This document shows positions 4,327-37,599 of a stretch of 40,274 nt of DNA, in pieces. The DNA is from a virus. Each line of letters starts with the position of its first letter. Position 1 is the stretch's first letter. A program made the translations under genes and the position numbers. Where the stretch lies: IMG/VR virus record IMGVR_UViG_3300023174_000327, positions 1 through 40,274 of that record. One strand, 5' to 3'. Under the pieces are notes generated by a model that worked only from the letters and a program-made list of their open reading frames with translations, was not told where the DNA came from and did no database searches.

Positions 4327-4779
4327 ATGAAAATATCAAGTTCTTATTTAAAACAGATTATTAAAGAAGAAATATCTAAAGTAGTTGAAGCATATCCTCA
4401 AGGTAAAAAAGTAATAGGACGAGATAGAAAAGGTGAACCACTTAGATTGGGTGATATAGTAGTTGTAGATAGACCACAAGACTCAGATGTAAGATATGGT
4501 AGAGTAGATCAACCACCAATTGGAGGCGAAGGTCCATTTAAGGGAGAAATATTAATTAACTTCCATTTCATACCAACTGATAAAATGAATGATGATGCAA
4601 TACCACCACAAAAGGTTGTAGTTAATCCACAATATTTAACTAAATTACCTGATGATGTTAATAAAGCAAAATTATTAAAACATCTTATAGCTAGACAAGA
4701 AAAAAATAGAATAGAACACGGCCATGAAGATGATTTTGAAAGACAATTTAAAAGAGTCGAAGATGGTTCTGAATTTTAA
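4327..4779 (+). CDS. leader-bearing protein with SH3-like domain, 150 aa
   Basis: Begins with MKISSSYLKQIIKEEISKV, a copy of the leader found on several unrelated proteins here (4786, 16485, 20346, 34559). After it comes a beta-rich region (about 30-110) starting LRLGDIVVVDRP, which resembles the small SH3-like barrels elsewhere in the window, and a charged helical tail (LIARQEKNRIEHGHEDDFERQF). I do not recognise the family. The leader resembles in style the T4 capsid-targeting sequences that are cut after Glu by prohead protease, so a virion-internal protein is possible. Preceded by an ACTATTTA motif and hairpin. Confidence 0.75.
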   Translation: MKISSSYLKQIIKEEISKVVEAYPQGKKVIGRDRKGEPLRLGDIVVVDRPQDSDVRYGRVDQPPIGGEGPFKGEILINFHFIPTDKMNDDAIPPQKVVVNPQYLTKLPDDVNKAKLLKHLIARQEKNRIEHGHEDDFERQFKRVEDGSEF

Positions 4780-4785
4780 AATTCT

Positions 4786-5391
4786 ATGAAAATTAATAAA
4801 AATTATTTAAAACAAATAATTTTAGAGGAATTAACCTCCATTAAAGGTGGTGGACAGGGAAGTGGAATGGCGATAGGTAAATTATCGTCTATTGATGATG
4901 ATGCACATCAAGATTTAGAAATTGATAAAAATGTTATTAAAGATTTACAATTTTATTTTGATGATTTTAAAAGAAAAGTAGATTTAAAAGATATTAAATA
5001 TTCTGATGTTAGATCGCTATTTAAAAAAATAGCTAATGTTTTAGATGCTTACGATAATAAACAAACGGATGAAGAAAAACAAAAATTTAGTAAAACATTT
5101 GTTAATATGTTTTTAATTAAAAATAATATTAAATTTCCAAAATCTAAAGATGGATATTTTTATGGATACTCCGATTTAGATTCAAGAAAAGAAGAAATTA
5201 TTAATATCAGCAATACAGTTAGATCTTTTATGGGTAATTTATTATTATTTCAATTTTATAGTTTAGATGACGCAAAAAAAATATTAGATAAAGCAGGTAT
5301 AGAGCATTTAGGCGATCATAAAAAAGCATTAAAATTAGGAAAATTTATTAGCGTATCAGATCCTAAATACATGACTCATAACAAAGATTAA
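4786..5391 (+). CDS. leader-bearing hypothetical protein, 201 aa
   Basis: Starts with the shared leader MKINKNYLKQIILEEL, then a Gly-rich linker (KGGGQGSGMAIG) and a largely helical, Lys/Asp-rich body. No known family is recognised. It lies 6 bases after the previous leader gene, with no strong ribosome site, so translation is probably coupled. The sharp break between conserved leader and Gly linker suggests the leader is a separable signal. A terminator/promoter unit follows at 5399-5453. Confidence 0.75.
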   Translation: MKINKNYLKQIILEELTSIKGGGQGSGMAIGKLSSIDDDAHQDLEIDKNVIKDLQFYFDDFKRKVDLKDIKYSDVRSLFKKIANVLDAYDNKQTDEEKQKFSKTFVNMFLIKNNIKFPKSKDGYFYGYSDLDSRKEEIINISNTVRSFMGNLLLFQFYSLDDAKKILDKAGIEHLGDHKKALKLGKFISVSDPKYMTHNKD

Positions 5392-5708: not shown

Positions 5709-5716
5709 GAGAATAT

Positions 5717-5980: not shown

Positions 5981-5990
5981 AGAGGATAAC

Positions 5991-6269: not shown

Positions 6270-6276
6270 GTGATAA

Positions 6277-7687: not shown

Positions 7688-7688
7688 C

Positions 7689-8522: not shown

Positions 8523-9363
8523 AAATGAAACAATTCAGCATTTAGCTGGAATAGTACCAATAGCCGGTCAGCCATTAGAGTTTAAATTCCCTTGGCATGA
8601 TTCTATGATACCTATAGCTCCTGACTTTCTAGCAGTAGAAAGATCAATATATGAATGTGCTATGGCCGGTTGTGAAACTATATGGGTTGTTTGTCATATG
8701 AAAACAGAGCCAATTCTAAAAAAAAGAATTGGAGATTTTATTATTGATCCGATATCCCTTGAAAGTATTGATAAAGGTTTTATAAGAGAAATACCAATCT
8801 ATTATGTGCCAATACATCCAAGAGATAAAAATAGAAGAGACTGTTTATCTTGGAGTATAATGTATGGTGCTCGCATTGCTTATTTCGTAAGTAAAAAATT
8901 ATCTAATTGGATTTTACCGGAAAAATTTTATTGCTCTTTTCCATATGGTATAACTGATTTAGAAACTATAAGAAATAATAGAAAAAATATTAGTAATTGT
9001 AAAAAAATAAAAATATCTTACAATAATCTAACGGTTAAAGATAATTTACATATGAGTTTTACATTTGATGAAAATGATTATTTTGATTGTAAAAGCATAC
9101 TTCATCAAAAAGATTTAGATAATTGGCAACGAACAAAACGAGGCGCTACCTATTATGATTTAAAAACTGGTTTATCTGCTATAGATAATAATACGGATAG
9201 AGAGATACAACTACCTTGGTTTTATGATATTAGTACTTGGGATGGATATGTTAATTATTTAAATTCTGAACATAGTAAGAAAATAAATGGCTTATCAAAA
9301 AATTTTTCCAGACACCTTAAAAAAAGATTTAGTAATGACGATTCAGAGCGAGAAACTATCTAA
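8506..9363 (+). CDS. nucleotidyltransferase-like protein, 285 aa
   Basis: The N-terminal half looks like a sugar-nucleotidyltransferase Rossmann fold: GIVPIAGQPLEF, then PDFLAVERSIYECAMAGCET and strand IWVVCHM, i.e. an AGG-like loop followed by 'main helix' and second strand. The classical GxGxR loop is not exact. The phrase VPIHPRDKNRRDCLSWSI is also distinctive; I associate it from memory with environmental-phage nucleotidyltransferase-like proteins. The substrate is unknown. With phosphomannomutase two genes upstream, mannose-1-phosphate is a plausible but unproven substrate. Confidence 0.6.
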   Translation: MELPYKNETIQHLAGIVPIAGQPLEFKFPWHDSMIPIAPDFLAVERSIYECAMAGCETIWVVCHMKTEPILKKRIGDFIIDPISLESIDKGFIREIPIYYVPIHPRDKNRRDCLSWSIMYGARIAYFVSKKLSNWILPEKFYCSFPYGITDLETIRNNRKNISNCKKIKISYNNLTVKDNLHMSFTFDENDYFDCKSILHQKDLDNWQRTKRGATYYDLKTGLSAIDNNTDREIQLPWFYDISTWDGYVNYLNSEHSKKINGLSKNFSRHLKKRFSNDDSERETI

Positions 9364-9393
9364 AAATATTAGATATAATTATAATAAGAAAAT

Positions 9394-10038
9394 ATGAAAA
9401 TTCTTTATCCCATAAATCAACATTTTGTTATTTGGTCTTTTTTATGTGGAGATCATGCTTTAAAGAGTAATATATCCTTATTAGATAAAAAGCTTATATC
9501 AATACCAGATTTATTATCGCCAATACAAAATGAATTACGTTGGGAAATATTTAAATCTAGACGTAATTGGATAGCCGATGAAATGGGCGACAGGGCTTCA
9601 TTCGCATTAGCTAAAATATCTGTAAATGATTTAAAAAAATATGATACATGTTTTGAAAATATAAGTTTTCATGAATTTGTTGATGAATACAGGAAAGCTT
9701 ATGATGGTAAAAGAGATATGGTAAATGACCGCTCCCAGTATTTTATGAAACGGCACTACAAACCTTTTAGTTCTGTAGAATATGAATTTAAATTAAAACA
9801 AAAATTAGTTAAAAATTATAAAAATGTGATTGAAAAAGACATTCTGGATATAAAACAGCAAAATGATGAAAATCTCTCCCTTGCGTTGAATCGCTGCTTT
9901 ATAATGAAAAAGGGCGATAAGCATATAATTATGGATGGCATGCACCGCCTTTCAGCATATTATTGGTCAAAGGCATTTGATAATGAAAAAAAGTTACCAA
10001 AAGAGGTCTTTTGCTTCTTTTGGAAAGCTAAATATTAG
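9394..10038 (+). CDS. ParB/sulfiredoxin-fold-like protein, 214 aa
   Basis: Near the C-terminus is IIMDGMHRLSAYYW (about residues 180-193), matching the (D/E)GxHR motif of the ParB/Srx nuclease-like fold, which binds phosphate or nucleotide. The upstream part is charged and helical (KSRRNWIADEMGDRASFAL), with no strong similarity I can name. Members of this fold include ParB CTPases, nucleases, kinases and phage DNA-modification proteins, so the activity is open. No strong ribosome site is visible at ATG 9394. The lipoprotein gene follows after 1 base. Confidence 0.55.
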   Translation: MKILYPINQHFVIWSFLCGDHALKSNISLLDKKLISIPDLLSPIQNELRWEIFKSRRNWIADEMGDRASFALAKISVNDLKKYDTCFENISFHEFVDEYRKAYDGKRDMVNDRSQYFMKRHYKPFSSVEYEFKLKQKLVKNYKNVIEKDILDIKQQNDENLSLALNRCFIMKKGDKHIIMDGMHRLSAYYWSKAFDNEKKLPKEVFCFFWKAKY

Positions 10039-11833: not shown

Positions 11834-14800
11834 ATGTCTGAACGTAAGAAGCCTAGCATACCATTTGTTAATTTCCACAATCACGATACATTCAGTATCT
11901 TTGACGGACTCGGATACCCGGACGAGCATTGCGACTTTGCTTACCAGAATGGTTTGCAAGGTATCGCTTTTACCAATCACGGTAATATGAATGGCTTTTC
12001 ATATTCTTTTATGAAAGCCAAGAAGATGAAAGAAGAAGGCAAGAATGATTTCCGTGTTCTTTACGGTATTGAGGCTTATGTCCATCCTTCCATCCCTCAG
12101 TGGAAACAAGAACACTTAAAGCACAAGGAAGATGCAAAGCTAGCCAAACAAGTTGATGATGATATTGGTCTGGTTGTAGAGAATGAGAGCGAAACCAAGA
12201 AAGGTATTCGTTCTTCTCTTAATCGCCGTTCTCATCTTGTGCTGGTAGCACAGAATCAGAAGGGTCTAAACAATCTTTTCAAGCTTGTAAGCGACTCATA
12301 TCGTGGCGATAACTTCTATCGTTTTCCACGTATGGATTATGATCTGCTTAAGAAGCATAACGAAGGAATTATTGCTAGCTCTGCATGTCTTGGTGGAGTT
12401 CTTGCTAATGATTATTGGGATAATATAGATAAGGGCGATAAGGCCGTTTACGCGGCAATGGAAAAAACCGTCCAGAACATGATGGATATCTTTGGTGATC
12501 GTTTTTATGGTGAGTTGCAATGGGCAAACTATAAAGAACAACATATTGTAAACCAATATGTAATCAATCTCTCCAAACAATTTGGATTCAATCTTATTAG
12601 CACTTGTGACGCACATTTTCCTAATCCTGATATGTGGAAAGATCGTGAAATTTATAAAATGCTTGGTTGGATGGGTAAAGGTGGAACTGATGTTAATATT
12701 GATGCCCTTCCACAAACACTGGAAGAAATGGAATATCAACTTTATCCAAAGAATGGCGACGAACTATTCGCAACGTATAAGCGTTTTGCAGGTCGTCTTG
12801 GATTTGATTATGATGATAAACTAGTAGAAGAGAGTATCGCACGCACTGCGGATATTCTCAAAAACCGTATCGAAGATTATATGCCAGATACAACTGTTAA
12901 ACTTCCTTCTTTCGTTATCCCAGAGGGAGAAACGGCTGATACCGCTTTGGCAAAAATTGCGGTTGATGCTCTTAAGAATACTGGTTTGTATAAAAACAAT
13001 GACTATGTTGAAAGACTTAAGGAAGAACTCCATACAATTAAAGATCGTGGATTCTCTAAATATTTCCTTACAATGAGAAAGATTTCTGATAAGTCTAAGG
13101 AAGTCCAGCTTTGTGGCGCAGGCCGTGGATCTGGCGCAGGATCTCTTGTGTCTTATCTCTTGAATATTACCGAAGTAGACCCAATCAAGTATAAACTCCA
13201 GTTCTCACGGTTTATTCGCCGTAATGCAAAGGACATGCCTGATATCGATTTCGACGTTTCCGACCCGATGGAAATCAAGGAAATGTTTATCAAGGAATTC
13301 GGTGAGAACACCGTTGTTCCTATCTCAAATTATAACACTCTAAAGGCACGTTCTCTTGTTAAAGATATCAGCAAGCTCTATGGTATTCCTTTCACAGAGG
13401 TAAATGAAGTTACATCCAAAATGATTCATGAAGCAACTCCTGTTTGTAAGAAGATTCATGGAATTATTGCGGGTGTATATGAGCCTACTTGGGAAGAACT
13501 AAAGGAACACTCTCCTTCTCTTGTATCATATCTAAAGAAGTATCCGCACGTTGCGACACACGTTGATAACTTGCAGAAGCAAGTTCGTTCAATCTCTCGT
13601 CATGCTGGCGGTGTGTTGTTCGCAGATAATATTGACCAAGTAATGCCGCTAATTAACAGCGGTGGAATTATTCAAACTCCTTGGACAGAGGGGCAAACTG
13701 TTCGTCATTTGGAACCGCTTGGATTCATCAAGTTCGATATTCTTGGTCTTGCTTCACTCCGCATGATTGAAGGTGCGATTGAGCATATCTTGAAGCGGCA
13801 CCACAATATGCCAAATCCGTCATTTGCGGATATCAAGAAATATTACAACGAAAAACTACATCCAGAAAAGATTGATCTAAACGATCAAGGTGTTTACAAA
13901 TACGTATTCAATGAAGGAAATTTCTGCGGTACATTCCAATTTACTAGTAATAATGCACAGAAATTTTGTATGCAGGCAAAACCAAAAAACATTGTAGATA
14001 TTGCCGCTATTACATCTATTTTCCGCCCCGGTCCATTGTCTGCAAACGTGCATGAAAATTATATTACTGCAAAGAATAATCCTGAGTCTATTCGCTATGC
14101 TCATCCACTAATTAAGGAAGTAACACAAGAAACATTTGGCTTCCTTGTTTTCCAAGAACAACTAAGTCTATTAGCCCATAAATTAGGCAAGGATATTTCG
14201 CTGGATGAAGGCAACGAACTACGAAAGGTACTCACAAAAAAAGGCACTGGAAAAGAAGCTCAAGTTAAAGAGAAATTGTACAGCAAGTTCATTACCGGCT
14301 GTAAAGAAAAAGGTCTTACCGAAGATGATGGAATATCTCTTTGGAAAACTATGGAATTCTTCTCAGGATATGGCTTTAACCTTTCTCATGCTATTTGTTA
14401 TTCTATACTTTCTTATCAGTGCGCTTATCTCTTTTACTATTACCCTGCTGAGTGGCTTGCTGCCTTCTTGGATAAAGAACCAGAAGAAAGAAAAGAATCA
14501 GCCATAAGTCTTGCTAAATCATATGGATTTAATATCAAACTTCTAGATATCAATTCATCAGGTGTAAAATGGGAAGTAGATAATGACGGCAAGACATTAA
14601 TTCAACCACTTTCTTCTATTAAAGGATTGGGCGAAACAGCAATAGAACAAATAATGAAGTATAGACCGTTTAATACTATTGATGAAATCTTATTTCATCC
14701 AGATATTATTTATAGTAAGTTAAATAAAAAAGCCCTAGATGCACTCACGAGAAGTGGCGCAATGAATACACTGGTAGATAACAGGTTCACTGGCTTAAAG

Positions 14801-15268
14801 CATTTCTGGTCAGCGGCGGTTGTAGATAGACCAAAGACACTAAAAAAGTTTCTAGACAATATCGATAAGTATAAACCAGAAGGCGACTTTTCTGATGAAG
14901 AAAAGTTAGAACATATGGTATCGTTAACTGGCGTATACCCTATTAGCATGGTTATGACTCCTGATATGATAAAGCGGTTAGAAGAAAAATATATACCACC
15001 TATTGGTCAATATGAAAAAGAGCTTGGAGAAGTGGTATGGTTCATTCCAAGAAATGTAGAAGAAAAGAAAACAAAGAATGGAAAGATTTATTGGATTCTT
15101 AATGTAACAGACACGTCTAATAATAATACCGCTATTAAATGTTGGGGCGTAGACCCAGTAAAAGATAAAATTTGGTTTAATCATCCCTATTTAGCTAAAC
15201 TAGATTTCGATGAACAATGGGGATGGAGTACAAGAAGTATTAGACACACATTTAAAATGTTAGGATAA
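11834..15268 (+). CDS. dnaE: DNA polymerase III alpha subunit (family C, DnaE-type)
   Basis: 1144 residues, close to bacterial DnaE. Domains in order: PHP domain (NFHNHDTFS, FTNHGNMNGF, about 12-60 onward); palm with GRGSGAGSLVSYLL (about 430) and the catalytic pair in PDIDFD (Asp470/Asp472 or 474); third Asp in FDILGLASLRM (Asp635); thumb/fingers; helix-hairpin-helix region (IKGLGETAIEQI, near 925); and a C-terminal OB-fold (about 1070-1120). It is the replicative polymerase of this phage. Because T4 relatives use family B enzymes, its combination with a T4-like helicase is a mosaic. No separate clamp, clamp loader or epsilon exonuclease is seen in the window. AATATTGGAGGA precedes ATG 11834. 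Confidence 0.96.
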   Translation: MSERKKPSIPFVNFHNHDTFSIFDGLGYPDEHCDFAYQNGLQGIAFTNHGNMNGFSYSFMKAKKMKEEGKNDFRVLYGIEAYVHPSIPQWKQEHLKHKEDAKLAKQVDDDIGLVVENESETKKGIRSSLNRRSHLVLVAQNQKGLNNLFKLVSDSYRGDNFYRFPRMDYDLLKKHNEGIIASSACLGGVLANDYWDNIDKGDKAVYAAMEKTVQNMMDIFGDRFYGELQWANYKEQHIVNQYVINLSKQFGFNLISTCDAHFPNPDMWKDREIYKMLGWMGKGGTDVNIDALPQTLEEMEYQLYPKNGDELFATYKRFAGRLGFDYDDKLVEESIARTADILKNRIEDYMPDTTVKLPSFVIPEGETADTALAKIAVDALKNTGLYKNNDYVERLKEELHTIKDRGFSKYFLTMRKISDKSKEVQLCGAGRGSGAGSLVSYLLNITEVDPIKYKLQFSRFIRRNAKDMPDIDFDVSDPMEIKEMFIKEFGENTVVPISNYNTLKARSLVKDISKLYGIPFTEVNEVTSKMIHEATPVCKKIHGIIAGVYEPTWEELKEHSPSLVSYLKKYPHVATHVDNLQKQVRSISRHAGGVLFADNIDQVMPLINSGGIIQTPWTEGQTVRHLEPLGFIKFDILGLASLRMIEGAIEHILKRHHNMPNPSFADIKKYYNEKLHPEKIDLNDQGVYKYVFNEGNFCGTFQFTSNNAQKFCMQAKPKNIVDIAAITSIFRPGPLSANVHENYITAKNNPESIRYAHPLIKEVTQETFGFLVFQEQLSLLAHKLGKDISLDEGNELRKVLTKKGTGKEAQVKEKLYSKFITGCKEKGLTEDDGISLWKTMEFFSGYGFNLSHAICYSILSYQCAYLFYYYPAEWLAAFLDKEPEERKESAISLAKSYGFNIKLLDINSSGVKWEVDNDGKTLIQPLSSIKGLGETAIEQIMKYRPFNTIDEILFHPDIIYSKLNKKALDALTRSGAMNTLVDNRFTGLKHFWSAAVVDRPKTLKKFLDNIDKYKPEGDFSDEEKLEHMVSLTGVYPISMVMTPDMIKRLEEKYIPPIGQYEKELGEVVWFIPRNVEEKKTKNGKIYWILNVTDTSNNNTAIKCWGVDPVKDKIWFNHPYLAKLDFDEQWGWSTRSIRHTFKMLG

Positions 15269-16484: not shown

Positions 16485-17258
16485 ATGAAGATAACTAAGT
16501 CTTACTTAAAGCAAATTATTAAAGAAGAGATTGAAAGCCTGCATGAAGTTGATGAAATAATTGAAACACATATTAAGTTAAAGCCAAGCGAATTTCTAGA
16601 TTTAACTACTGGTGAAAAATATCCAAAATCAGCACTAGAAGCAAGACTTGAATATGCAAAAAAAGATATAGCTTCTAAACAAAAAGATTTGAAAAAAGAA
16701 CTTAGTAAATCAATTCCTAGTTTAACATTAGATTTTAATGGAAAAGTTATAGATCACGAAGGAAGAATGAGAATGTATTATTTTGAAAATTATGAAAATA
16801 ATATTCCAAAAGAAGTTTTAATTATCCATCCTAAAAGTTTAGATTTATCTAAGCCAAATTTAATGCTACATAATCAATTTGGTGAGGAAACAAGTGTTCA
16901 ATTAAATAAGCAACAGCAGCAAAATATTGAATTATCACAAATAGAGAAATTAGTGAATTTAACTCCTGATATATTGTCAGGAAAAATGAGAGATATTGTT
17001 TTAAATTTAACAAAAGAAAAAAATATTTCAAAAGAAGAAGCAGCTAATTTATTAAATAATGAGTTACAAAAATATGATGTTATTGTAGAACCCACAAGAG
17101 AACAAGAATTTGCAATAATAATTGTTACTTCTCCTATGGTATCTGCCAGAATTTATAAAAAAGATTATAAGGAAGGTTCAATTTTAAATGATCCAAAATC
17201 AAAACAATTTAGCAATCCTTTATCTTATAAAGATAAAATAACTTTAAGAAAGAAATAA
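16485..17258 (+). CDS. leader-bearing hypothetical protein, 257 aa
   Basis: Begins MKITKSYLKQIIKEEIESL, the clearest copy of the shared leader. The body is Lys/Glu-rich and mostly helical in the middle (QLNKQQQQNIELSQIEKLV, about 139-157), with beta-like segments at 55-110 and at the end. No family recognised. Preceded by an ACTATTTA hairpin. The body shows no similarity by eye to the other leader proteins, which supports a modular leader. Candidate virion-internal protein by inference. Confidence 0.75.
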   Translation: MKITKSYLKQIIKEEIESLHEVDEIIETHIKLKPSEFLDLTTGEKYPKSALEARLEYAKKDIASKQKDLKKELSKSIPSLTLDFNGKVIDHEGRMRMYYFENYENNIPKEVLIIHPKSLDLSKPNLMLHNQFGEETSVQLNKQQQQNIELSQIEKLVNLTPDILSGKMRDIVLNLTKEKNISKEEAANLLNNELQKYDVIVEPTREQEFAIIIVTSPMVSARIYKKDYKEGSILNDPKSKQFSNPLSYKDKITLRKK

Positions 17259-20282: not shown

Positions 20283-20330
20283 CCTAAGCTCACCGGCATA
20301 TCCCGTAAAAAGGTGTGCCGGTGTTTTAGG
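20283..20330 (+). terminator. GC-rich hairpin, probable terminator
   Basis: CACCGGCA (20291-20298) pairs with TGCCGGTG (20316-20323), and CCTAA (20283-20287) with TTAGG (20326-20330) outside it. Only TTTT follows the inner stem, so termination may be partial, with read-through to 20346. Confidence 0.65.
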
Positions 20331-20345
20331 TTAAAGGATTGCAAA

Positions 20346-20618
20346 ATGCAAATTACTAAAAAACAATTAAAACAAATTATTTCAGAAGAAGCAGAGTTAC
20401 TTTCAGAAGAATCTGCCCAATATCAGCAATTAATTGAAAATTATGCTTCAGAATATGGTGCCGATGAAGAAAATGTTCCTAAAGAGGCATTAATTGATTT
20501 ATTGGAAGTACTAGATGAACAAGTGATTCCGAGAGAAGCGTTTGAAGCCTTTGTAGAAAGTTTAAATGAAAACAAAGTTTCTTCTTTGCTAAAAGAAGTT
20601 CTAGAAACAGAAGAATAA
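20346..20618 (+). CDS. leader-bearing small acidic protein, 90 aa
   Basis: I start it at ATG 20346 (AAGGA 8 bases upstream), because the in-frame codon at 20313 lies inside the hairpin. It opens with MQITKKQLKQIISEEAELL, a copy of the shared leader, followed by an acidic helical body (ALIDLLEVLDEQVIPREAFE). The body is barely larger than the leader, as for T4 internal proteins and small core proteins. Unknown family. It is followed at once by a terminator/promoter unit. Confidence 0.75.
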   Translation: MQITKKQLKQIISEEAELLSEESAQYQQLIENYASEYGADEENVPKEALIDLLEVLDEQVIPREAFEAFVESLNENKVSSLLKEVLETEE

Positions 20619-21079: not shown

Positions 21080-21385
21080 ATGATTATAGCGACTGAAATG
21101 AATTATAAAAATAAAGATGAAGTTACAATAGCTATATTAAAAAAGTATCTTAAAAAAGAAGGTAATATGCTCTTGTCACAACGTCTTTTTGTCGCCAAAT
21201 CAGTTATAAATTGGATATTTGAAAACAGCAAACACCCTCTAATAATTAAATCATATATAGAAGATGTAGAAAGATACATTGTTGGAACTCTTGAATTATC
21301 TTGGAAAGACGGAGTAATAATAAAAAAGAAAATAAAGAAAGAAAACACAAATGAAAACAAAAAAACAACCTCCGAAAAAGAATAA
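21080..21385 (+). CDS. hypothetical protein, 101 aa
   Basis: Helical protein with a Lys-rich C-terminal tail (about residues 78-101). The middle (LLSQRLFVAKSVINWIFE) is amphipathic. Unrecognised. It overlaps the ClpP-like gene by 35 bases, so they are translationally linked, but I cannot infer a function from that. Confidence 0.6.
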   Translation: MIIATEMNYKNKDEVTIAILKKYLKKEGNMLLSQRLFVAKSVINWIFENSKHPLIIKSYIEDVERYIVGTLELSWKDGVIIKKKIKKENTNENKKTTSEKE

Positions 21386-21998
21386 AGAAGATAAAGATTT
21401 GCTAGATGGTCGTGATGGTTTAGTGATAATCCAAAACGACATGCAAGATGATAAACACTCAAGAACTATTGGTCTTTTTGGTGATGTCGGAGAGCAAACC
21501 TGTGCAGAAGTAATTTCTAATTTAATAGCATTAAGTAAAATGGGCGAGATACCAAAAAATGAACGCAAAGACAAATATACTCACGAACCTATTGAATTTT
21601 ACGTTAATACACATGGTGGATCTGCCAGCGATATGTTTGCGATTTACGATATGATGCGTCAGGTACGTAAACAGTGCGAAATACATACTATTGGCATGGG
21701 AAAAATAATGAGTGCGGGAGTTCTAATAATGGCAGCAGGAACAAAAGGAAAACGCAAGATAGGCGCACACGCTCGCGTTATGATTCATTCAGTTTTGGGA
21801 GGAACAGAAGGGCCGCTACATAATCTTCAAAACGAATTTGATGAAATTAAATTTGTTCAGGAAGCCTATACAAAAGCTCTTATTAAAGAAACTAATCTAA
21901 CTCCAAAAGCAATGAAGGATTTGCTTGAACGTCATGTTAATATTTATTTATCAGCCGAAGAAGCTGTTAAGTATGGTATTGCTGATGAGGTAATCTAA
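21351..21998 (+). CDS. ClpP-like serine protease with Asn in the triad Asp position
   Basis: 215 residues with a ClpP core after a basic N-terminal extension: strand FYVNTHGGSASDMFAIYDMM, nucleophile region MGKIMSAGVLIMAAGTKGKR (Ser121), and RVMIHSVLGG (His146). Aligning ERHVNIYLSAEEA with the ClpP segment ERDRFLSAxEA places Asn197 at the catalytic Asp position, so activity may be altered, as in some SppA/ClpP-like phage enzymes. It could degrade host proteins or process phage proteins. The start could be later, as the first 20 residues are Lys-rich. It is followed directly by two nuclease-like genes. Confidence 0.88.
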   Translation: MKTKKQPPKKNKEDKDLLDGRDGLVIIQNDMQDDKHSRTIGLFGDVGEQTCAEVISNLIALSKMGEIPKNERKDKYTHEPIEFYVNTHGGSASDMFAIYDMMRQVRKQCEIHTIGMGKIMSAGVLIMAAGTKGKRKIGAHARVMIHSVLGGTEGPLHNLQNEFDEIKFVQEAYTKALIKETNLTPKAMKDLLERHVNIYLSAEEAVKYGIADEVI

Positions 21999-23054
21999 AT
22001 GTCAAAAGAATTTGAAAAAAAGATTGAAGATTTGTTTCTTGGCGAATCAGTGTCTATTGATTCTGAATCACTTAACAAAATAATTAACGAAGTATTTTTA
22101 TCTTCCATCAGCGAACAAGGCGCAGAGCCGGTTCAGCAAACTTCGACAGAAACCGAACAAATTTTAAGAATGCTACCCAAGATGGAGTTTAATGAGAAAA
22201 AAGTTGGAGTTGTTGGTAATCAAGAACGACAAGAAGTTAGAATGGTTCTTGGAAAAGAACTCAATTCAGCTAAAGATTTGAGATCTAAATTACAAATAAT
22301 AAATTCATTAACTTCAAAATCAGATGATAAAAAATTAACCAGCATCGAAGCATTAAGAAAATTAATGATATTAAAAATATTTAAAAATTTGTTTGTTGGT
22401 TCTTCTCCCGGTCCATCCGGTTATCGTTTTGAAGCTTTTATAGCAGCCTTATTGGGTGGCGAACAAATAATACCAAAAGAAGGTGGTTTGATAGATGTAG
22501 TAGTTGATAATAAATTATATCAAGTAAAATTAATAGCCCAAGGATCCTCAGTAAGAATTAAAAGAAAAATGGCGTCAACTATTCAGCCTACTCAGCAGAA
22601 AAATAAAGATAACGATTTACAATCCACTGAACAGCCAAAAAAGCAATCTAATAAAAAAATAAATGTAAAAAATGAAAAATTAAGCGATAGTCCTGAGTTA
22701 AACTTTATTATTGCAACTAAAAATAACGACTCCAGTGTTTCATTTTATGAATATACAGCTACTAAAGAGCAGATAGCTGGCGAAGCAGACCAAGAAGGAA
22801 AAACTACTGTTGAATTTACAATAACAAAAACACAATATGAAAGTAAAGGAGTCATTGGAGTTATAAATATTAATGATAGTGAATTTATTAATTTAAGTAA
22901 TAAACTACAAGACGGATTAAAACAAGTATTATTAGGAGTAGCATCTTTAGTAAATAATGTTAACAAATTTTATTTAAACAACGATACCGGAGCCGCTAAA
23001 GAAGGCATACAAAATGCCAATACAGTTTCAAGTAATTTAATACAGCAAATCTAA
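21999..23054 (+). CDS. PD-(D/E)XK nuclease-like protein, 351 aa
   Basis: The central region fits a restriction-endonuclease-like fold: a helix with Glu145 (GYRFEAFIAALLGGE), then strand GGLIDVVVD with Asp166, then LYQVKL with Gln175 and Lys177 (E-D-QxK pattern). Around it, the N-terminus (about 1-40, LNKIINEVFL) is helical and the region 185-225 is Gln/Lys-rich low complexity. The neighbouring gene shows the same core pattern. It may cut DNA. The nuclease call rests on residue pattern only. ATG 21999 directly follows the ClpP-like stop. Confidence 0.6.
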   Translation: MSKEFEKKIEDLFLGESVSIDSESLNKIINEVFLSSISEQGAEPVQQTSTETEQILRMLPKMEFNEKKVGVVGNQERQEVRMVLGKELNSAKDLRSKLQIINSLTSKSDDKKLTSIEALRKLMILKIFKNLFVGSSPGPSGYRFEAFIAALLGGEQIIPKEGGLIDVVVDNKLYQVKLIAQGSSVRIKRKMASTIQPTQQKNKDNDLQSTEQPKKQSNKKINVKNEKLSDSPELNFIIATKNNDSSVSFYEYTATKEQIAGEADQEGKTTVEFTITKTQYESKGVIGVININDSEFINLSNKLQDGLKQVLLGVASLVNNVNKFYLNNDTGAAKEGIQNANTVSSNLIQQI

Positions 23055-23055
23055 T

Positions 23056-24297
23056 ATGAATCTTATAAATTATCTACGTGAGCAGATAGAACACGAATTA
23101 GAAGAAGAATTAACTAGGCAAGATGAATTAATATCTAGCGTTAAAAAGGTTTTATCTGATTTAGAAGATATCTCTATTACTACTTCCAATAAAAGCGATT
23201 TAGCTATTGTTGTTCGTGTTGAAGATAAAGAAAAAATAGAGTCTACTAGAAAAAAAGTTAAATCAGCTATTAAATCTATTGGAGTTTCTACTAGTGATGA
23301 ATTAGTAAAAAAATTTGATTCAAGTATAAAAACAACAATAGTTGAATATTCGGATGGTTCTGGACGTGTTTATATAGTTTATAAATACGATATTGGTTCA
23401 CGCGAAGGATTGGCTTTAGAGCATGTTGTTGGCTTTGTGTTAACTAAAAAAATTACTAGCGAGTTGAAGAATCGATTGGATTTACCAGAAGAAGCAAGTA
23501 AAGAAGAGGTTATTTCTAAACTAAAAGGAGAGTATTCAGATACTCTTGATGTTGCTTTGAAAGGTAAAAAATTAGTTGAAGAAAAAATCGGTAACATAGT
23601 GCAGGCTGAAAGCGTCGGCTCTCAAAACTCTAAAGCCGATCTTGTATTAACAACCGATAGTGGTCAAAAGGTTGGTTTATCTATCAAGTTAGTAACTGAA
23701 GAAGGCCGTGGTGTTAGATTTACATATAACAAAAACCTTGGATATGGAGATGAAAAAGATGATAACCTTGTTCGTAATCCTAGCGGAAAGCCTTGGTGGC
23801 TTGTGGGGAGGCAAATATTTGCGAGGAAAGTCGGCTCTAGAAGCTATAATCCCGGCAAAGAAGAATTTGAAGCCCCCGCATGGATGACCAGCGCTAAAGA
23901 AAAGCATCCTGACTTATATAAAGAAGCAATGAGTGAAGTGTATGAAAAAGTACGTGACGTGTTAACTTCCAATCTTCGTCGAATGAAATTAAAAGAGCTT
24001 GTTGCAATGGTTAACGAGGCTCATCTTGGCGTTAAGGATGAAAGAGAAGAATATGATTTGTTTTTGAAGTTAACAGCAACAAGCGAAGGTGTTAATCTAG
24101 AAGAAGAAGGTTATGAGAAGCCTGACGTTGAAAAAATTAAAATGAACGATATGAACAAGGCTGACCTTGTTAAACAAGAAGATAGCCTTATAATTATAGA
24201 TATTCCCGGCATGACACCGTTAACAATTCACAGCGTTAAATTCCACAGTAATATGTTAAGTGGAAAGCGCGATGATCTAAAAATTAAGACACGCTAA
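23056..24297 (+). CDS. second PD-(D/E)XK nuclease-like protein, 413 aa
   Basis: Core pattern: GLALEHVVGF helix with Glu122, then SKADLVLTTDSGQKVGLSIK with Asp195 and Ser209-Ile-Lys211 (D...SxK), a layout common in type II restriction-type nucleases. The start NLINYLREQIEHELEEEL is an amphipathic acidic helix reminiscent of the leader proteins. The C-terminal part (about 300-413) is helical then beta-rich and unrecognised. It is adjacent to the 21999 protein and overlaps the zincin gene by one base, so the three are probably one functional cassette. Catalytic function is inferred. Confidence 0.6.
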   Translation: MNLINYLREQIEHELEEELTRQDELISSVKKVLSDLEDISITTSNKSDLAIVVRVEDKEKIESTRKKVKSAIKSIGVSTSDELVKKFDSSIKTTIVEYSDGSGRVYIVYKYDIGSREGLALEHVVGFVLTKKITSELKNRLDLPEEASKEEVISKLKGEYSDTLDVALKGKKLVEEKIGNIVQAESVGSQNSKADLVLTTDSGQKVGLSIKLVTEEGRGVRFTYNKNLGYGDEKDDNLVRNPSGKPWWLVGRQIFARKVGSRSYNPGKEEFEAPAWMTSAKEKHPDLYKEAMSEVYEKVRDVLTSNLRRMKLKELVAMVNEAHLGVKDEREEYDLFLKLTATSEGVNLEEEGYEKPDVEKIKMNDMNKADLVKQEDSLIIIDIPGMTPLTIHSVKFHSNMLSGKRDDLKIKTR

Positions 24298-25319
24298 TGA
24301 TTAAACTAATAATTAAAGAAAATAAAAAAAAATTACAAAATTTATTAACAGAAGCTTATGTATTTTCTGTTGATAATCCTTTAGTATCTAATATAAGAAA
24401 TGCGCTTGAGCCAACAATAAAATTAAGCAAACCAACATCTTTTAAAGTAGATATTTTTTTAAAAGACTTAATAGAATATAAAGATACTAGTTTAAGTAAA
24501 AAAAATGGAGTTCCATTTTTTTATTATGGTAATATTATTGGTCAAACATTTTCCTTAACTCCTGAATTAAAAAATTATTTAGATAGTAATTTTCAAACCG
24601 AAATTTTAAATAAAAAAATACCATTAGAAATTAATTTTTTATTAGATAGTAAAAGCACAGACCCAGCTAAAGCGCTAATTGAACAAAATTCTGATAAGAC
24701 TATTAATCTAAAAATAAACTTTTATTCTTCTGCGCTAAGGCAACATTTAAAACCATATAATACTAAAAATTTTGATGCTTTGATAGCTCATGAAATTACA
24801 CATTTCAAACAACACATTGATCCATTGGTATTAAAATATGGCGAATTAGCTAAAAAAGAAAAAAACTATAAAAAACTAAAAGTCCTTCCTCTTATGAATA
24901 AAGGCAAGGTGACTGTTGGCTTAACAGGAGTAGGAAAGAAGAGTGATTTAAAAAATGTAAATATCTCTACACCATCAGAAGAATACGCAGTTGATCAAAA
25001 GGAATTTTTACCAAATTATGATCAGTTGACTAAAAAATTATTTATTGGTTTAAAAGATAGAGAAAAATCAAATAAGTTTAAAAATGCTCTATCAAATATC
25101 AATATTGATTCAAGTGCGCTAGCTGGACAATATGTTAAAAAATTAGCTTATGATAAATATTTTCTAGATGAAATAAGTGGAGAGGATCAACTATTATATG
25201 ACTATCTTAGACTTAACTTTCTATCTAGAGAAAAAGAAATGCCAACAAAACTTATAAAAACTTTAACAGATAAAATAAATAATTATAGAATAGTTAATAA
25301 CATTAAAGTGAAAAAATAG
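24297..25319 (+). CDS. zincin-type metalloprotease-like protein, 340 aa
   Basis: Zinc site AHEITHFKQH (HEITH at 165-169) and, about 60 residues later, SEEYAVDQKEF, where a Glu could be the third ligand. The N-terminus (IIKENKKKLQNLLTEAY) is a Lys-rich amphipathic helix ending LLTEA, similar to prohead-protease cleavage sites of T4 (small-x-Glu, Ala). A protease acting on host or virion proteins is the simplest reading. Starts at ATG 24297 overlapping the previous stop (TAATG). Confidence 0.7.
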   Translation: MIKLIIKENKKKLQNLLTEAYVFSVDNPLVSNIRNALEPTIKLSKPTSFKVDIFLKDLIEYKDTSLSKKNGVPFFYYGNIIGQTFSLTPELKNYLDSNFQTEILNKKIPLEINFLLDSKSTDPAKALIEQNSDKTINLKINFYSSALRQHLKPYNTKNFDALIAHEITHFKQHIDPLVLKYGELAKKEKNYKKLKVLPLMNKGKVTVGLTGVGKKSDLKNVNISTPSEEYAVDQKEFLPNYDQLTKKLFIGLKDREKSNKFKNALSNINIDSSALAGQYVKKLAYDKYFLDEISGEDQLLYDYLRLNFLSREKEMPTKLIKTLTDKINNYRIVNNIKVKK

Positions 25320-25335: not shown

Positions 25336-26916
25336 GTGAAGAAAGTATATGATTCTGGTTTATCGTTAAATTCAAAAATTTTATCTGGTGTTAATAAATT
25401 AGCAGATGCTGTTAGCTGTACTTTAGGACCAAAAGGAAGGAATGTTGTAATTCACAGTAAAGGTAAAACACCAGTAATTACCAAAGACGGTGTTACTGTT
25501 AGCGAAGCTGTTGTTTTTGATGATGTTTTTGAAAATGTTGGCGCTCAAGTATTAAAGCAAGCAACCTCAGTTACTGCCACTGAAGCTGGTGATGGAACTA
25601 CTACCGCTACTGTTTTGGCAAGAGCAATAGTAAATCAAGCGCAGAAATATATTATTGCAGGCGCTTCTCCAACCGATTTAAAGCGTGGTATGGAATCAGC
25701 CACAATTAATATTGTTACTAGAATTAAGGAAAATAGCCGTCCGGTAACTTCTCTAGAAGATATTGAACATATTGCTACTATATCAGCCAATGGTGATAAT
25801 AAAATTGGCAAACTGATCTCAACCGCTGTAGACAAGGTAGGTAAAGATGGCGCTGTCACAATTGAAGAAGGAAAATCACTAGACACTGTTCTAGATATAG
25901 TAGAAGGTTTCCAATTTGATAGTGGATTCGTATCGCCACAATTTATTACAGATGAAAGACGTGGCGCAGTGCGTTACGATAATGCTTTAGTGCTTGTGAC
26001 GGATCACAATCTTTCCTCTATCGATGAAATGATGCCAATACTAGAAGTAGCTGCGCGTGAAAATAAACCATTTGTTATAATTGCCGATAACGTTGAAGGG
26101 CAATTATTAGCAGCATTAATATTAAATACAGTACGAGGTTCAATGCGTGTTGCAGCTATCAAAGCTCCACGTTATGGTGAAGAACGCAGAAATATTCTTA
26201 AAGATTTGGCCTTGTCTGTTGGTGCTACGTTTGTATCACGCGAAAGTGGCATGCTTATTAGCGAAATGAAACGCCAGCATTTAGGCACTGCTAAAACAGT
26301 AGAAAGCTTAAAAGCTTGGACTACCATTGTCGGCGGTGGTGGCAACTATGATGAAGTAGATAAACGCATTGAATCATTAAAAACTGAAATAGCAGCCACT
26401 AGTGATATGCGTGAATGTGAACGTATACAAGAGCGTATTACTAGATTAGCCTCTGGAATCGCTATAATTCGCGTAGGAGGGCTAACAGAAGTCGATATGG
26501 TGGAGCGTAAGCATCGCATAGAAGATGCCTTAGAAGCCGTTAAAAGCGCTCAACAGGAAGGCACTTTACCCGGAGGAGGAACTGCATTGTTTAGGTTGTC
26601 TAGAGACTTAGACAAAACAGTTCATGCGGAAAATCAAGATGAAAAATTCGGTATTGAAATTATTATGAAGGCTTGTGAAGAACCCATACGTAAATTATCT
26701 GAAAATTCAGGGCTTAAGGCGGATGTTATATTAAATGATCTCGCTAATAATTTCGATGATTTTTGGCATGGGATGAACTTTGCAACAGGTCATTATTCAC
26801 ATATGGTGGATGTTGGCATAATAGACCCTGCTAAAGTTACTAGGTGTGCCTTACAAAATGCTGTAAGCGCTGCGTCTACTTTACTCACCACTTCACATGC
26901 TATTATTGAAACTTAA
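25336..26916 (+). CDS. groL: GroEL-family chaperonin
   Basis: 526 residues covering the whole GroEL fold. The nucleotide site is intact: TLGPKGRNV, TKDGVTV, GDGTTTATVLAR, and the C-terminal equatorial RIEDALEAVKS and PGGGTALF. The apical domain is complete by length. The C-terminus stops shortly after the last equatorial helix, so the Gly-Gly-Met tail of bacterial GroEL is missing. Starts with GTG at 25336; no ATG fits. It should form a ring with the GroES-like protein (5991) and fold capsid or other phage proteins. Confidence 0.96.
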   Translation: MKKVYDSGLSLNSKILSGVNKLADAVSCTLGPKGRNVVIHSKGKTPVITKDGVTVSEAVVFDDVFENVGAQVLKQATSVTATEAGDGTTTATVLARAIVNQAQKYIIAGASPTDLKRGMESATINIVTRIKENSRPVTSLEDIEHIATISANGDNKIGKLISTAVDKVGKDGAVTIEEGKSLDTVLDIVEGFQFDSGFVSPQFITDERRGAVRYDNALVLVTDHNLSSIDEMMPILEVAARENKPFVIIADNVEGQLLAALILNTVRGSMRVAAIKAPRYGEERRNILKDLALSVGATFVSRESGMLISEMKRQHLGTAKTVESLKAWTTIVGGGGNYDEVDKRIESLKTEIAATSDMRECERIQERITRLASGIAIIRVGGLTEVDMVERKHRIEDALEAVKSAQQEGTLPGGGTALFRLSRDLDKTVHAENQDEKFGIEIIMKACEEPIRKLSENSGLKADVILNDLANNFDDFWHGMNFATGHYSHMVDVGIIDPAKVTRCALQNAVSAASTLLTTSHAIIET

Positions 26917-29783: not shown

Positions 29784-30140
29784 ATGCATCTAAAAGATAT
29801 ATTAAAACAATTAATACTAGAATGCATTCAAGAAGAATATCTTGAAATTGATGATTTATTATTAGAAGGTACGTTCGATAAAGAAAAGAAAAGCGGTTTA
29901 CATGGTTGGTTTCAAAGGCGCGGTGGTAAAGGAAAAAGCAAAGGATGGGTAGATTGTAATACTTGTAGAACTAATCCTAAAACTGGTCGTAAAACTTGTA
30001 AATCTTGTGGAAGGCAAAAAGGTGAAAATCGTGGAAAATATCCTGCATGCCGTCCTACTCCAAGTGCATGTACTAACACTGGAAAACGAAAGAAAAAAAG
30101 CAGTATGAGAGTATCTTGGAAAAAAAAGAAAAAGGATTAA
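29784..30140 (+). CDS. leader-like plus basic zinc-binding domain protein, 118 aa
   Basis: The N-terminus MHLKDILKQLILECIQEEYL is a variant of the shared leader, then a basic Cys domain: VDCNTCRTNPKTGRKTCKSC with a further CRPTPSAC, rich in Arg/Lys/Gly. A poly-Lys tail follows. It resembles DUF5872-type basic domains in environmental phages and giant viruses. Probably binds nucleic acid or is packaged. 2 bases after the preceding gene. Confidence 0.75.
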   Translation: MHLKDILKQLILECIQEEYLEIDDLLLEGTFDKEKKSGLHGWFQRRGGKGKSKGWVDCNTCRTNPKTGRKTCKSCGRQKGENRGKYPACRPTPSACTNTGKRKKKSSMRVSWKKKKKD

Positions 30141-30142
30141 TT

Positions 30143-30556
30143 ATGTTAATTAATAAACAACATTTACAAAACATTATTAAAGAAAGCTTACAAGAGCATT
30201 TAATTTTTGAAAACGAATTGGGACAAGAAACTGCTGTATTAGAAGATGGAACTGCTGTTTGCGAAGCATGTCTTTATGAAACAATGACTTGTGGATGCCC
30301 AGATGTTCTTGAAGAAGCTAAATATCATGGCCGTACAGTACCACTTGGAAAACCAATGAAAGGCGATGTAAAAAAGTTTAAAGTTTATGTTCGTGATCCC
30401 AAAACTGGAAACGTTAAAAAAGTAAACTTTGGCGATAAGAAAATGCGTATCAAGAAAAGTAATCCAAAACGTAGAAAGAGTTTCCGCGCTCGTCATAATT
30501 GCGCTAATCCCGGTCCAAGAACAAAAGCACGTTATTGGTCATGCAGAAAGTGGTAA
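30143..30556 (+). CDS. leader-bearing basic domain protein (RARHNC/YWSCRKW type), 137 aa
   Basis: Start placed at ATG 30143 (AAAGGA upstream), after the end of the previous gene. It begins MLINKQHLQNIIKESLQEHL, another variant of the leader, then a Cys pair region (CEACLYETMTCGC), and ends in the basic domain DPKTGNVKKVNFGDKKMRI, followed by FRARHNCANPGPRTKARYWSC. I recall the C-terminal domain from many marine phage proteins, function unknown. Three genes in a row (29155, 29784, 30143) pair different N-termini with different basic domains. Confidence 0.8.
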   Translation: MLINKQHLQNIIKESLQEHLIFENELGQETAVLEDGTAVCEACLYETMTCGCPDVLEEAKYHGRTVPLGKPMKGDVKKFKVYVRDPKTGNVKKVNFGDKKMRIKKSNPKRRKSFRARHNCANPGPRTKARYWSCRKW

Positions 30557-34558: not shown

Positions 34559-34894
34559 ATGAAAATCGCTAAAGAAAAATTAATGCAGATAATAAAAGAA
34601 GAAATAACTTTTGTAGCTTCACAGCCAACATTACCAGCAACTACAGGAATCGCTTCATACCCAATTCCAGCACCAATGCCAGACAGTATTGATCCAGATG
34701 GTTATGAAGGACGCATGGCAAAAACAAATCTTTTTAAGATGGAAGAATATGCACGCAGCCTTCAAGGAATGATTGCAGACAATGAAAATCTTGAACCATG
34801 GGTACAAGAGAAAATAGCTGTTGCAGCATCAATGATTGAAAGTGTTGCACATTATATGCAATACGATAAATCTCATCCACAATCTGGTGAATAA
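34559..34894 (+). CDS. leader-bearing protein with helical DUF-like domain, 111 aa
   Basis: The start MKIAKEKLMQIIKEEITFV is a copy of the shared leader (Tyr replaced by Lys, Leu-Lys-Gln changed to Leu-Met-Gln). After a Pro-rich linker (AAT-like, PIPAPMPDSIDPDG) comes a helical domain, KMEEYARSLQGMIADNENLE, followed by PWVQEKIAVAASMIESVAHYM, which I recall from many phage proteins. The leader plus linker plus domain order is typical of the set. It lies in the virion block after the fibre. Probable virion protein by context. Confidence 0.8.
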   Translation: MKIAKEKLMQIIKEEITFVASQPTLPATTGIASYPIPAPMPDSIDPDGYEGRMAKTNLFKMEEYARSLQGMIADNENLEPWVQEKIAVAASMIESVAHYMQYDKSHPQSGE

Positions 34895-34895
34895 A

Positions 34896-35498
34896 ATGGA
34901 TAAGTTTTATTCCTCTTGGAAATCTTTTTTGCATGAAAGAGAAATACGCGGCATCAAGGACACTTCAAAAATAACTTCCTTGTGCGTATTTGATTTTGAT
35001 GGTACATTGTTCAAAAGTCCCGAGAAACCAGACGACGAAGGTAATAATTGGTGGTTGTTTGCTAAAAGCCTTGATGAACCAGCAGCACCACATATTCCCG
35101 GTAAGGAATGGTGGTATAATAAAACCGTTGATTTAGCTTTAAATAAAATTAAAGATCCAAGTGCTTATTGTATTATGTTAACAGGTAGAAGCGACAGATT
35201 CCTTAATAAAAGAATCAATGAATTACTTTTACAAAGAAAAATGATGTTTGATGAAGTTGGCTTGAATGATTCCGGCGAAGAATCAGAAAATTTTAAAATT
35301 GCACGTATCAGAGAAATATTAAAATCTCTTCCTAATATTCAAAAATTAGAAATGTGGGAAGATCAAAAAGATTTAGCAGATAAATATTCACAAGAATTTT
35401 CTAAAGATAAATTCAAATTTGTTGTTCATATTGTCGATGATGGATATTCTAAATCCGATAGCGGACAAACAAAATTAAAGATTAAAATCAAGTCTTAA
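34896..35498 (+). CDS. HAD-superfamily protein (HAD-SAK-like), 200 aa
   Basis: Start placed at ATG 34896, 1 base after the preceding stop. The HAD nucleophile motif is VFDFDGTLF, then CIMLTGRSDRF (motif 2) and MWEDQKDLADKY (acidic motif near the end), with a FKSPEKP insertion typical of the Swiss-army-knife RNA-repair-linked HAD proteins. The N-terminus DKFYSSWKSFLHERE is an amphipathic leader-like helix. Likely a phosphatase acting on nucleic-acid ends or another phosphate ester. Substrate unknown. Confidence 0.75.
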   Translation: MDKFYSSWKSFLHEREIRGIKDTSKITSLCVFDFDGTLFKSPEKPDDEGNNWWLFAKSLDEPAAPHIPGKEWWYNKTVDLALNKIKDPSAYCIMLTGRSDRFLNKRINELLLQRKMMFDEVGLNDSGEESENFKIARIREILKSLPNIQKLEMWEDQKDLADKYSQEFSKDKFKFVVHIVDDGYSKSDSGQTKLKIKIKS

Positions 35499-36547: not shown

Positions 36548-36552
36548 AGTTG

Positions 36553-36580
36553 TTAACATCAGCCAAGTTTCTGTTACAAT
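36553..36580 (+). promoter_or_regulatory. sigma70-like promoter for purA
   Basis: TTAACA (36553-36558), 16-base spacer, TACAAT (36575-36580) with TTCTGT upstream (TG extended). The upstream part GTTAACATCAGCC is repeated exactly at 37940-37952. TTTTGGAGGAAAA precedes ATG 36604. Confidence 0.7.
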
Positions 36581-36603
36581 CAGCCACATCTTTTGGAGGA
36601 AAA

Positions 36604-37599
36604 ATGATTGAATATGCAGACGTTATTGTTGATTTAGCATATGGCGATAGTGGTAAAGGAAAAGTAACACATATCTTAACTAAGAACGGCGATTATACGC
36701 ATTGTATTAGATACAATGGATCAAATAACGCTGGTCATACAATCTATCATGAAGGTAAAAAGATTGTAACACATTCAATTCCTACGGGAGTTGTACATGG
36801 CATCAAGTCTATCATTGGTCCCGGCTGTGTAATGAATGTTAAGCAATTTTTTAATGAATTAAAGGAATTGCAAGATGCTGGCATAAAGACTGATGGTCTT
36901 GTTTACGTTGCAAAGAATGTTAATATAATCACCGAAGAGCACTTGCAAGAGGATAGACAGGATGCTAAAATAGGTACAACTAAGCGAGGCAACGGCCCAG
37001 CATATCGTGATAAATATAATAGAAAAGGAATTCGTGCAGAGCAAATTCCTGAACTGAAAAACTATTTAATAGACCTATATGAAGAACTTCATTCAGAAAA
37101 TACCCCATGCCGCATTCTATTTGAAGGTGCTCAAGGTTTTGGTCTTGACATTGATTGGGGCGATTATCCTTTCGTTACTAGCTCCACTTGTACTGTTGGC
37201 GCTGCTGTTGCTAACGGTGTTCCTCCAAGCAAAATTAGGAATGTTTGGGGGATAACTAAAGTTTATGAAACATATGTAGGTGGCAAAAAGTTTGAACCAG
37301 ACGATCCAATCTTTGGTAAGATACGTGAACTTGGTGGAGAGTACGGAGCAACAACTGGCCGACCAAGACAATGCAATTGGATTAATACCTCTTTGTTACG
37401 TAAGGCAGCAAAGATTAATGGCGTAAATAAAGTTGTATTTAATAAGGCCGATATCCTTAGAATGGTAGATGCTTGGAAGGCATATGATTTAAATGGTAAT
37501 CTTATCACTTTCCAAGATGAAGAACTTATGAAATCTTGGATGCAAGAATTGTTGCCAAATATAGAAATATATTGGAGTGATAGCCCAGATAGGATATAA
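36604..37599 (+). CDS. purA: adenylosuccinate synthetase, short archaeal-like form
   Basis: 331 residues; I place the start at ATG 36604 with GGAGGAAAA, not 36550. Motifs: P-loop-like LAYGDSGKGKV (Asp15 aligns with catalytic Asp13 of E. coli), NNAGHTIYH (catalytic His45), GTTKRGNGPAYRDK, FEGAQGFGLDIDWG, and GATTGRPRQCNW. Glu14 of the bacterial GDEGKGK is Ser16. Length matches archaeal PurA and the phage PurZ group rather than bacterial PurA (about 430). PurZ proteins, from memory, carry GSTGKG with Ser replacing this Asp; the Asp here argues for IMP as substrate. It makes adenylosuccinate (then AMP by host PurB). Preceded by a strong promoter. Confidence 0.9.
   Translation: MIEYADVIVDLAYGDSGKGKVTHILTKNGDYTHCIRYNGSNNAGHTIYHEGKKIVTHSIPTGVVHGIKSIIGPGCVMNVKQFFNELKELQDAGIKTDGLVYVAKNVNIITEEHLQEDRQDAKIGTTKRGNGPAYRDKYNRKGIRAEQIPELKNYLIDLYEELHSENTPCRILFEGAQGFGLDIDWGDYPFVTSSTCTVGAAVANGVPPSKIRNVWGITKVYETYVGGKKFEPDDPIFGKIRELGGEYGATTGRPRQCNWINTSLLRKAAKINGVNKVVFNKADILRMVDAWKAYDLNGNLITFQDEELMKSWMQELLPNIEIYWSDSPDRI

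Follow-up and report, generated by a model that had tools for sequence, protein, structure and literature searches.

The stretch of DNA analysed here (the window: 40,274 bases of viral DNA, IMG/VR record IMGVR_UViG_3300023174_000327) comes from a phage related to T4 and known only from metagenomes, and it carries, between a ClpP-like gene and groEL, three coupled genes, designated A, B and C, whose products may form a variable cargo of capsid-targeted nucleases and other enzymes that is injected with the genome. We favour this reading, on the grounds of sequence, structural models and analogy with T4, over the alternatives weighed below, and hold it tentatively. The coordinates and spacing of the three genes, as proposed in an earlier reading made from the letters of the window (the sequence-only reading), were confirmed from the open reading frames (ORFs). 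All lie head to tail, with 0 bases between the ClpP-like gene and A, 1 base between A and B, and a 1-base overlap between B and C:

21351..21998, + strand: ClpP-like protein (Pfam CLP_protease, E 3e-35; aligned to solved ClpP)
21999..23054, + strand: gene A, 351 residues, variable nuclease-like slot, type 1
23056..24297, + strand: gene B, 413 residues, constant nuclease-like member
24297..25319, + strand: gene C, 340 residues, variable slot, zincin-like in the window phage
25336..26916, + strand: GroEL, constant right flank (Pfam Cpn60_TCP1, E 4e-69)

Gene B is the constant member of this locus, and A and C are exchange slots. Scans of IMG/VR located B in 15 loci, and the 13 distinct B proteins that were aligned, all from uncultivated T4-type phages, are 48-88% identical to the window copy. 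The order of genes around B is unchanged across the loci, always between the ClpP-like gene, which is the constant left flank in the relatives too, and groEL, the product of which is 68-88% identical among the loci compared; synteny in related phages, which the sequence-only reading had named as a check, is the same throughout and additionally separates one constant gene from two exchanged ones. Slot A holds a type 1 protein in the window and in loci L012, L004, L005, L007 and L043, a type 2 protein with W.PxDVY and [VI]SLK in L011, L033 and L035, a type 3 protein with a VDSK...ISSK stretch in L009, and in L046 a type 4 protein with SADLYI...ISVK, and it is empty in L010 and L036. Types 2-4 appear nuclease-like by their motifs only. 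Slot C is occupied by a zincin-like protein in the window, L012 and L004, by a kinase-like protein in L005 (PADLOC PD-T4-6 profile, E 2.5e-5), by a protein in L007 judged 2H-phosphoesterase-like from two HxT motifs and without a family match, and by a GIY-YIG protein in L011, and is empty in L009, L010, L033, L035, L036, L043 and L046. In L046 (4291-7128) A and B are fused into a single ORF of 945 residues, and this natural fusion suggests that the two act together. In L005 (9980-11237) a frameshift or a sequencing error near residue 332 breaks B into two overlapping ORFs, and the GIY-YIG/NUMOD3 endonuclease in slot C of L011 (9724-10383) is probably a homing element.

Three of the relative records contain a gp21-type prohead protease (PF03420), and four others contain a gp23-type capsid protein (PF07068); the remaining records are fragments or were searched for fewer than both families. 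Judged by these genes, the relatives are T4-type phages. B has no sequence match in 50,697 phage records (INPHARED, tblastn; none even at E 10), A and C likewise have none in INPHARED by tblastn, and no relatives of B were found in the bacterial genomes scanned. Pfam, PHROGs, NCBIfam and PADLOC were searched with A, B and C, and none of the three matched significantly. A pattern scan for direct homologues of C returned none, and two divergent copies were recovered through synteny.

The possibility of a capsid-targeted cargo is raised by the N-termini of the slot A and slot C proteins, which in the window phage are:

21999..22115, + strand: gene A leader, residues 1-39, ending I-S-E39 (profile comparison, pairwise shuffles)
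24297..24353, + strand: gene C leader, residues 1-19, MIKLIIKENKKKLQNLLTE, followed by A (possible gp21-type protease cleavage)

Slot A proteins of types 1 and 2 can be aligned only over residues 1-33 (profile E 3.9e-6) while their bodies do not align, and pairwise shuffle tests agree; as far as sequence comparison goes, the two types are a common leader on different bodies. E39 is invariant in type 1, the leaders of which end [LI]xE. A second leader, MIKxxIK, is common to the zincin-like and the kinase-like (L005) slot C proteins, and the invariant residues of the gene C leader are M1, I2, K3, I6, K7, N9, L16 and E19. Leaders are thus shared by differing bodies, as in T4-type internal proteins. 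The amphipathic N-terminal helices described in the sequence-only reading were predicted in B (residues 2-34) and, at low confidence, in A (3-14 and 22-37). A broader motif, [ILVM][STND]xxx[LIM]xx[ILV][ILV]x[EQ]x[ILVFMA], scanned in five phages, gave 27 matches within the first 25 residues and 10 elsewhere, a 24-fold N-terminal enrichment in which not all matches are independent, since related phages share some of the carrier genes. The carriers include small head-module genes near those for the capsid, portal and prohead protease, such as MKVTKQYLKQLIKEQIEQMSEEGELNEA in G8. Several homologues of gene B, and a small number of other genes, carry the aromatic leader class of T4 (aromatic-x-x-aromatic-[ILV]-x-E), which is not found in the A or C leaders.

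In T4, internal proteins reach the prohead core through short N-terminal peptides that are later removed by proteolysis (PMC9026906, PMC9958956), and EcoRI and staphylococcal nuclease, fused to an internal protein or to the targeting peptide, have been packaged and delivered by engineered phage (PMC9026906). The A, B and C proteins would be of this known kind. In common with IPI, IPII, IPIII and Alt they have a short N-terminal leader and bodies that vary between related phages (PMC9026906, PMC9958956), in the setting of a T4-type capsid and a gp21-type protease, with leaders that end [L/I]-x-E. They differ from them in that the leaders at the window locus are mostly of another sequence class and packaging of the proteins is presumed, and in bodies that resemble PD-(D/E)XK nucleases and a zincin instead of the ADP-ribosyltransferase or restriction-enzyme inhibitor of T4. 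What would be new is the payload of a nuclease-like pair and a zincin, the class of leader and a fixed B beside exchanged A and C; this arrangement adjoins ClpP-like and GroEL genes, which is also new.

We may hypothesize the following sequence of events. B would be a constant PD-(D/E)XK-type nuclease, slot A would supply an interchangeable second nuclease and slot C an interchangeable effector, in the window phage a zincin metalloprotease. Their short amphipathic leaders, acting like the capsid-targeting sequences of T4, would bring the proteins into the prohead core, where a gp21-type protease would cut after [L/I]-x-E; with the leaders removed in the prohead, the mature enzymes would be packaged and would enter the host along with the DNA. 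Once inside, the nucleases would most probably be directed at the DNA of the host, of plasmids or of competitors, and a host protein would be cut by the zincin; this would amount to the role in host takeover put forward in the sequence-only reading.

The nuclease assignment relies on residues that were verified letter by letter in both proteins, E145, D166 and Q175-V-K177 in A, and E122, D195 and S209-I-K211 in B:

22431..22529, + strand: gene A codons for E145 to K177, the predicted PD-(D/E)XK-like active-site region (conservation, AlphaFold model)
23419..23688, + strand: predicted active-site residues of gene B, E122 via D195 to S209-x-K211 (conservation in 13 proteins, cyanophage register)

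In the six type 1 A proteins, which share 18-41% identity with the window protein, 14 positions are invariant, E145 and D166 included, and [QS]xK or SxK stands at the matching place in all six; kept across such divergence, the pattern is more than chance. In the AlphaFold model of A (predicted local distance difference test, pLDDT, 62.8) a helix carries E145, while D166 and Q175/K177 fall at strands; eight of the top 50 PDB matches of this model, non-significant ones, are restriction endonucleases, namely DpnI (4kyw), 3ndh (two chains), NhoI (8rpx, four chains) and HincII (2gii). In B, E122, D195, S209 and K211 are invariant in the 13 proteins, which alone is weak evidence since these are 48-88% identical. 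The AlphaFold model of B (pLDDT 80.6) comprises the N-terminal helix, an alpha/beta domain (approximately residues 36-112), a PD-(D/E)XK-like core (117-212) and a C-terminal region. Within the core, helix 117-130 carries E122, followed by strands 181-186, 196-200 and 205-212, with D195 just ahead of the second strand and S209/K211 on the third, which is the helix-strand-strand-strand topology of a PD-(D/E)XK enzyme, though residues 113-119 and 215-236 are modelled at low confidence. In the Foldseek viral library, B gave eight matches at E 0.001, among them uncharacterised proteins of the Agrobacterium phage Atu_ph07 and of the cyanophages S-RIM44 and S-RIM14, and two proteins named PD-(D/E)XK are among its weak matches there. 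A profile comparison of A with B gave no significant match between the two as homologues.

The protease assignment of gene C could be taken further. Its H165-E166-I-T-H169 motif and the LLTE19-A site were both found as described, and a candidate third zinc ligand, which the sequence-only reading had left to be found, was located downstream:

24789..24803, + strand: HEITH zinc-binding motif of gene C (sequence, conservation)
25002..25004, + strand: E236 codon, for the proposed third ligand of zinc (unchanged in three divergent copies, where F or Y comes next)

H165, E166, H169 and E236 are invariant in the three C proteins (23-30% identity to the window copy), in accordance with an HExxH motif completed by a third ligand, and E236 would presumably bind zinc. 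By its motif, gene C would encode a zincin metalloprotease. It shares with gluzincins or SprT-like metalloproteases the HExxH and the conserved downstream Glu, and differs from them in the 67 residues that separate the second His from the candidate ligand, in its N-terminal leader and in falling below every curated cut-off; the L012 copy has weak SprT matches spanning the HExxH, also below every such cut-off.

A parallel to B was found in marine cyanophages. A profile comparison aligns residues 116-212 of B with SSM1_188 of phage S-SM1 (P 0.011) in such a way that E, D and SxK correspond. Two genes downstream of SSM1_188, this phage encodes a cytidyltransferase (T4-GC190) that begins MKKFSAFLNEA. 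The T4 targeting peptide, MKTYQEFIAEA, has the same spacing. The cytidyltransferase has been detected in virions by mass spectrometry (PMC3037559). The S-RIM14 protein matched by the model of B has 465 residues, a length shared by two S-RIM14 ORFs, and is taken to be LIS021110_169 (WNPADIW...GISLK), since the other is a capsid protein; despite this structural match, the B profile finds nothing in S-RIM14 by sequence. SSM1_188 (L100, 6447-7280) and LIS021110_169 (L099, 2689-4086) are both unannotated PD-(D/E)XK-like proteins which differ in sequence and lie in the same cyanophage neighbourhood, near the virion-detected cytidyltransferase. That neighbourhood resembles the window locus in holding a variable PD-(D/E)XK-like protein of a T4-type phage, with SSM1_188 matching B at E, D and SxK, and differs from it in having other neighbours, no ClpP/GroEL context and, for SSM1_188, no visible leader.

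Several observations weigh against a cargo of capsid-targeted nucleases. Neither model matched the PDB significantly by Foldseek (for B, nothing at E <= 0.001, the top matches being nucleotidyltransferase-like), and for this reason the PD-(D/E)XK folds, moderately supported by conservation, predicted topology and the non-significant restriction-enzyme matches of A, are considered likely rather than proven. The third motif of A and B has Q or S for the usual D/E, and the hhalign probability of the alignment between B and SSM1_188 is only 3.8. The N-terminus of A fits the broader leader motif in its second half only, while that of B resembles a targeting sequence only loosely, of a class that is 2.8-fold enriched, with 8 matches. 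Sites of the form [LI][LI]xE[ASG] are only 1.3-fold enriched near N-termini genome-wide, and cleavage-like sites are barely enriched among leaders (shuffle p 0.04). The LLTEA of gene C, previously likened to a T4 prohead cleavage site, is therefore a weak match when taken alone, and we rejected it as proof of prohead cleavage. With sites so weakly enriched, cleavage of the leaders by the prohead protease is plausible rather than shown. In favour of a T4-like system, the capsid proteins of the relatives carry LL[KR]E-[AS] with the E at residue 60-61, to be compared with the 65 residues that gp23 of T4 loses (PMC9958956). As for the suggestion that the proteins are possibly virion-borne, it gains support that is indirect rather than a direct demonstration, from the shared leader, the N-terminal enrichment of the motif, its head-module carriers, the gp21-type protease of the relatives and the cyanophage parallel.

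The strongest competitor, clearly less probable than capsid delivery, is that the three proteins are enzymes of the usual intracellular kind, which are made after infection and are not packaged, B being a nuclease that processes DNA or degrades that of the host, A its variable companion and C a protease, with helices that serve for oligomerisation or for attachment to a partner, for example GroEL or the adjacent ClpP-like protein. The locus lies among genes of metabolism and replication rather than head genes, and its ClpP-like and GroEL neighbours are constant, as would be expected in that case; on the other side, a motif related to the leaders occurs on head-module genes too, the leaders are common to proteins with different bodies, and a cyanophage virion protein encoded near a B-like gene bears a T4-style leader.

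A role within the head that requires no catalysis seems unlikely. A and B would then be inactive, nuclease-derived internal head proteins that bind the DNA in the capsid and organise it or shield it during entry, with C trimming head proteins, and the leaders would be accounted for just as well as in capsid delivery, in agreement with the Q or S in the third motif and with the fast divergence of A. The E, D and K nevertheless persist among proteins with only 18-41% identity to the window copy, and endonucleases of the Mrr (QxK) and Cfr10I/NgoMIV (SxK) types are active without that acidic residue. Their active sites hold a D, then Q/S-x-K and further acidic residues, as in A and B, to which they have no detectable sequence relation. 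Slightly less probable still is that the residue patterns arose by chance in charged proteins and that A and B have other folds, B for instance a nucleotidyltransferase-like one. Neither protein has a family match, and the best PDB matches of B are of the nucleotidyltransferase fold, with a probability of up to 1.00 but a TM-score of about 0.2. These matches, which carry no residue ranges, probably come from its 36-112 stretch, where D48 is not conserved in L043 and L046. The conservation of the proposed nuclease residues in divergent proteins, the fitting topology and the E-D-SxK register with the cyanophage protein also argue against other folds. Capsid delivery accordingly ranks ahead of intracellular enzymes, followed by inactive head proteins and lastly by non-nuclease folds.

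Read in this way, the locus hints that T4-type phages in the environment may naturally do something like what engineered T4 has been made to do, and exchange the payload as well. If so, the leader motif could be used to predict, from sequence, which of the many unknown genes in uncultivated phages encode injected proteins, and would open the first minutes of infection to testing. More speculatively, a leader class distinct from that of T4 and based on ITxxxLxxIIxEE could be used by uncultivated T4-type phages to load swappable enzymes for injection (nucleases, metalloprotease, and kinase-like, phosphoesterase-like and RNA-repair-like proteins), with B and the fast-exchanged A as core payload and with phage genomes modified through PurZ spared. 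The window has a PurZ-type gene at 36550-37599 (PHROG 1211, '2-aminooxy adenylosuccinate synthetase', E 1e-68), and copies 69-96% identical occur in seven of 12 relative records, so that 2-aminoadenine DNA may be widespread among these phages; PurZ is a possible way of sparing the phage genome from the nucleases. It was not found in a 187-kb relative that carries both A and B, and cannot, for that reason, be a general requirement.

Other genes of the window bear leader-like N-termini:

16485..17258, + strand: leader-bearing gene (MKITKSYLKQIIKEEI), possible further cargo (N-terminal motif)
20313..20618, + strand: leader-bearing gene (MQITKKQLKQIISEE, from an internal ATG; N-terminal motif, weak match to the gene A leader profile)
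4327..5391, + strand: two adjacent leader-bearing genes (MKISSSYLKQIIKEEI, MKINKNYLKQIILEEL; N-terminal motif)
30116..30556, + strand: leader-bearing gene (MLINKQHLQNIIKESL, from an internal ATG; N-terminal motif)

Proteins of the RNA-repair HAD family HAD_SAK_1 with leader-like N-termini are encoded in the window (34890-35498) and in L022 (4858-5367, - strand), and are possible RNA-repair cargo by sequence. L022 further encodes two P-loop (AAA_33) proteins with aromatic leader-like N-termini, KFKKWLLEE and IMENWRKF (5711-7732 and 8730-9749, - strand).

Concerning the left flank, the ClpP-like protease of the sequence-only reading holds as to its Pfam match and its Ser and His motifs (MSAG, MIHS), and fails at the catalytic Asp position, where the window protein, like the homologues compared, has Asn instead (HVNIYL), leaving the Ser-His-Asp triad incomplete. 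Elsewhere in the window of this T4-type phage, a gene for a DnaE-type (C-family) DNA polymerase lies at 11834-15268, its product about 30% identical to the DnaE-like polymerases of Bacillus and Streptomyces phages.

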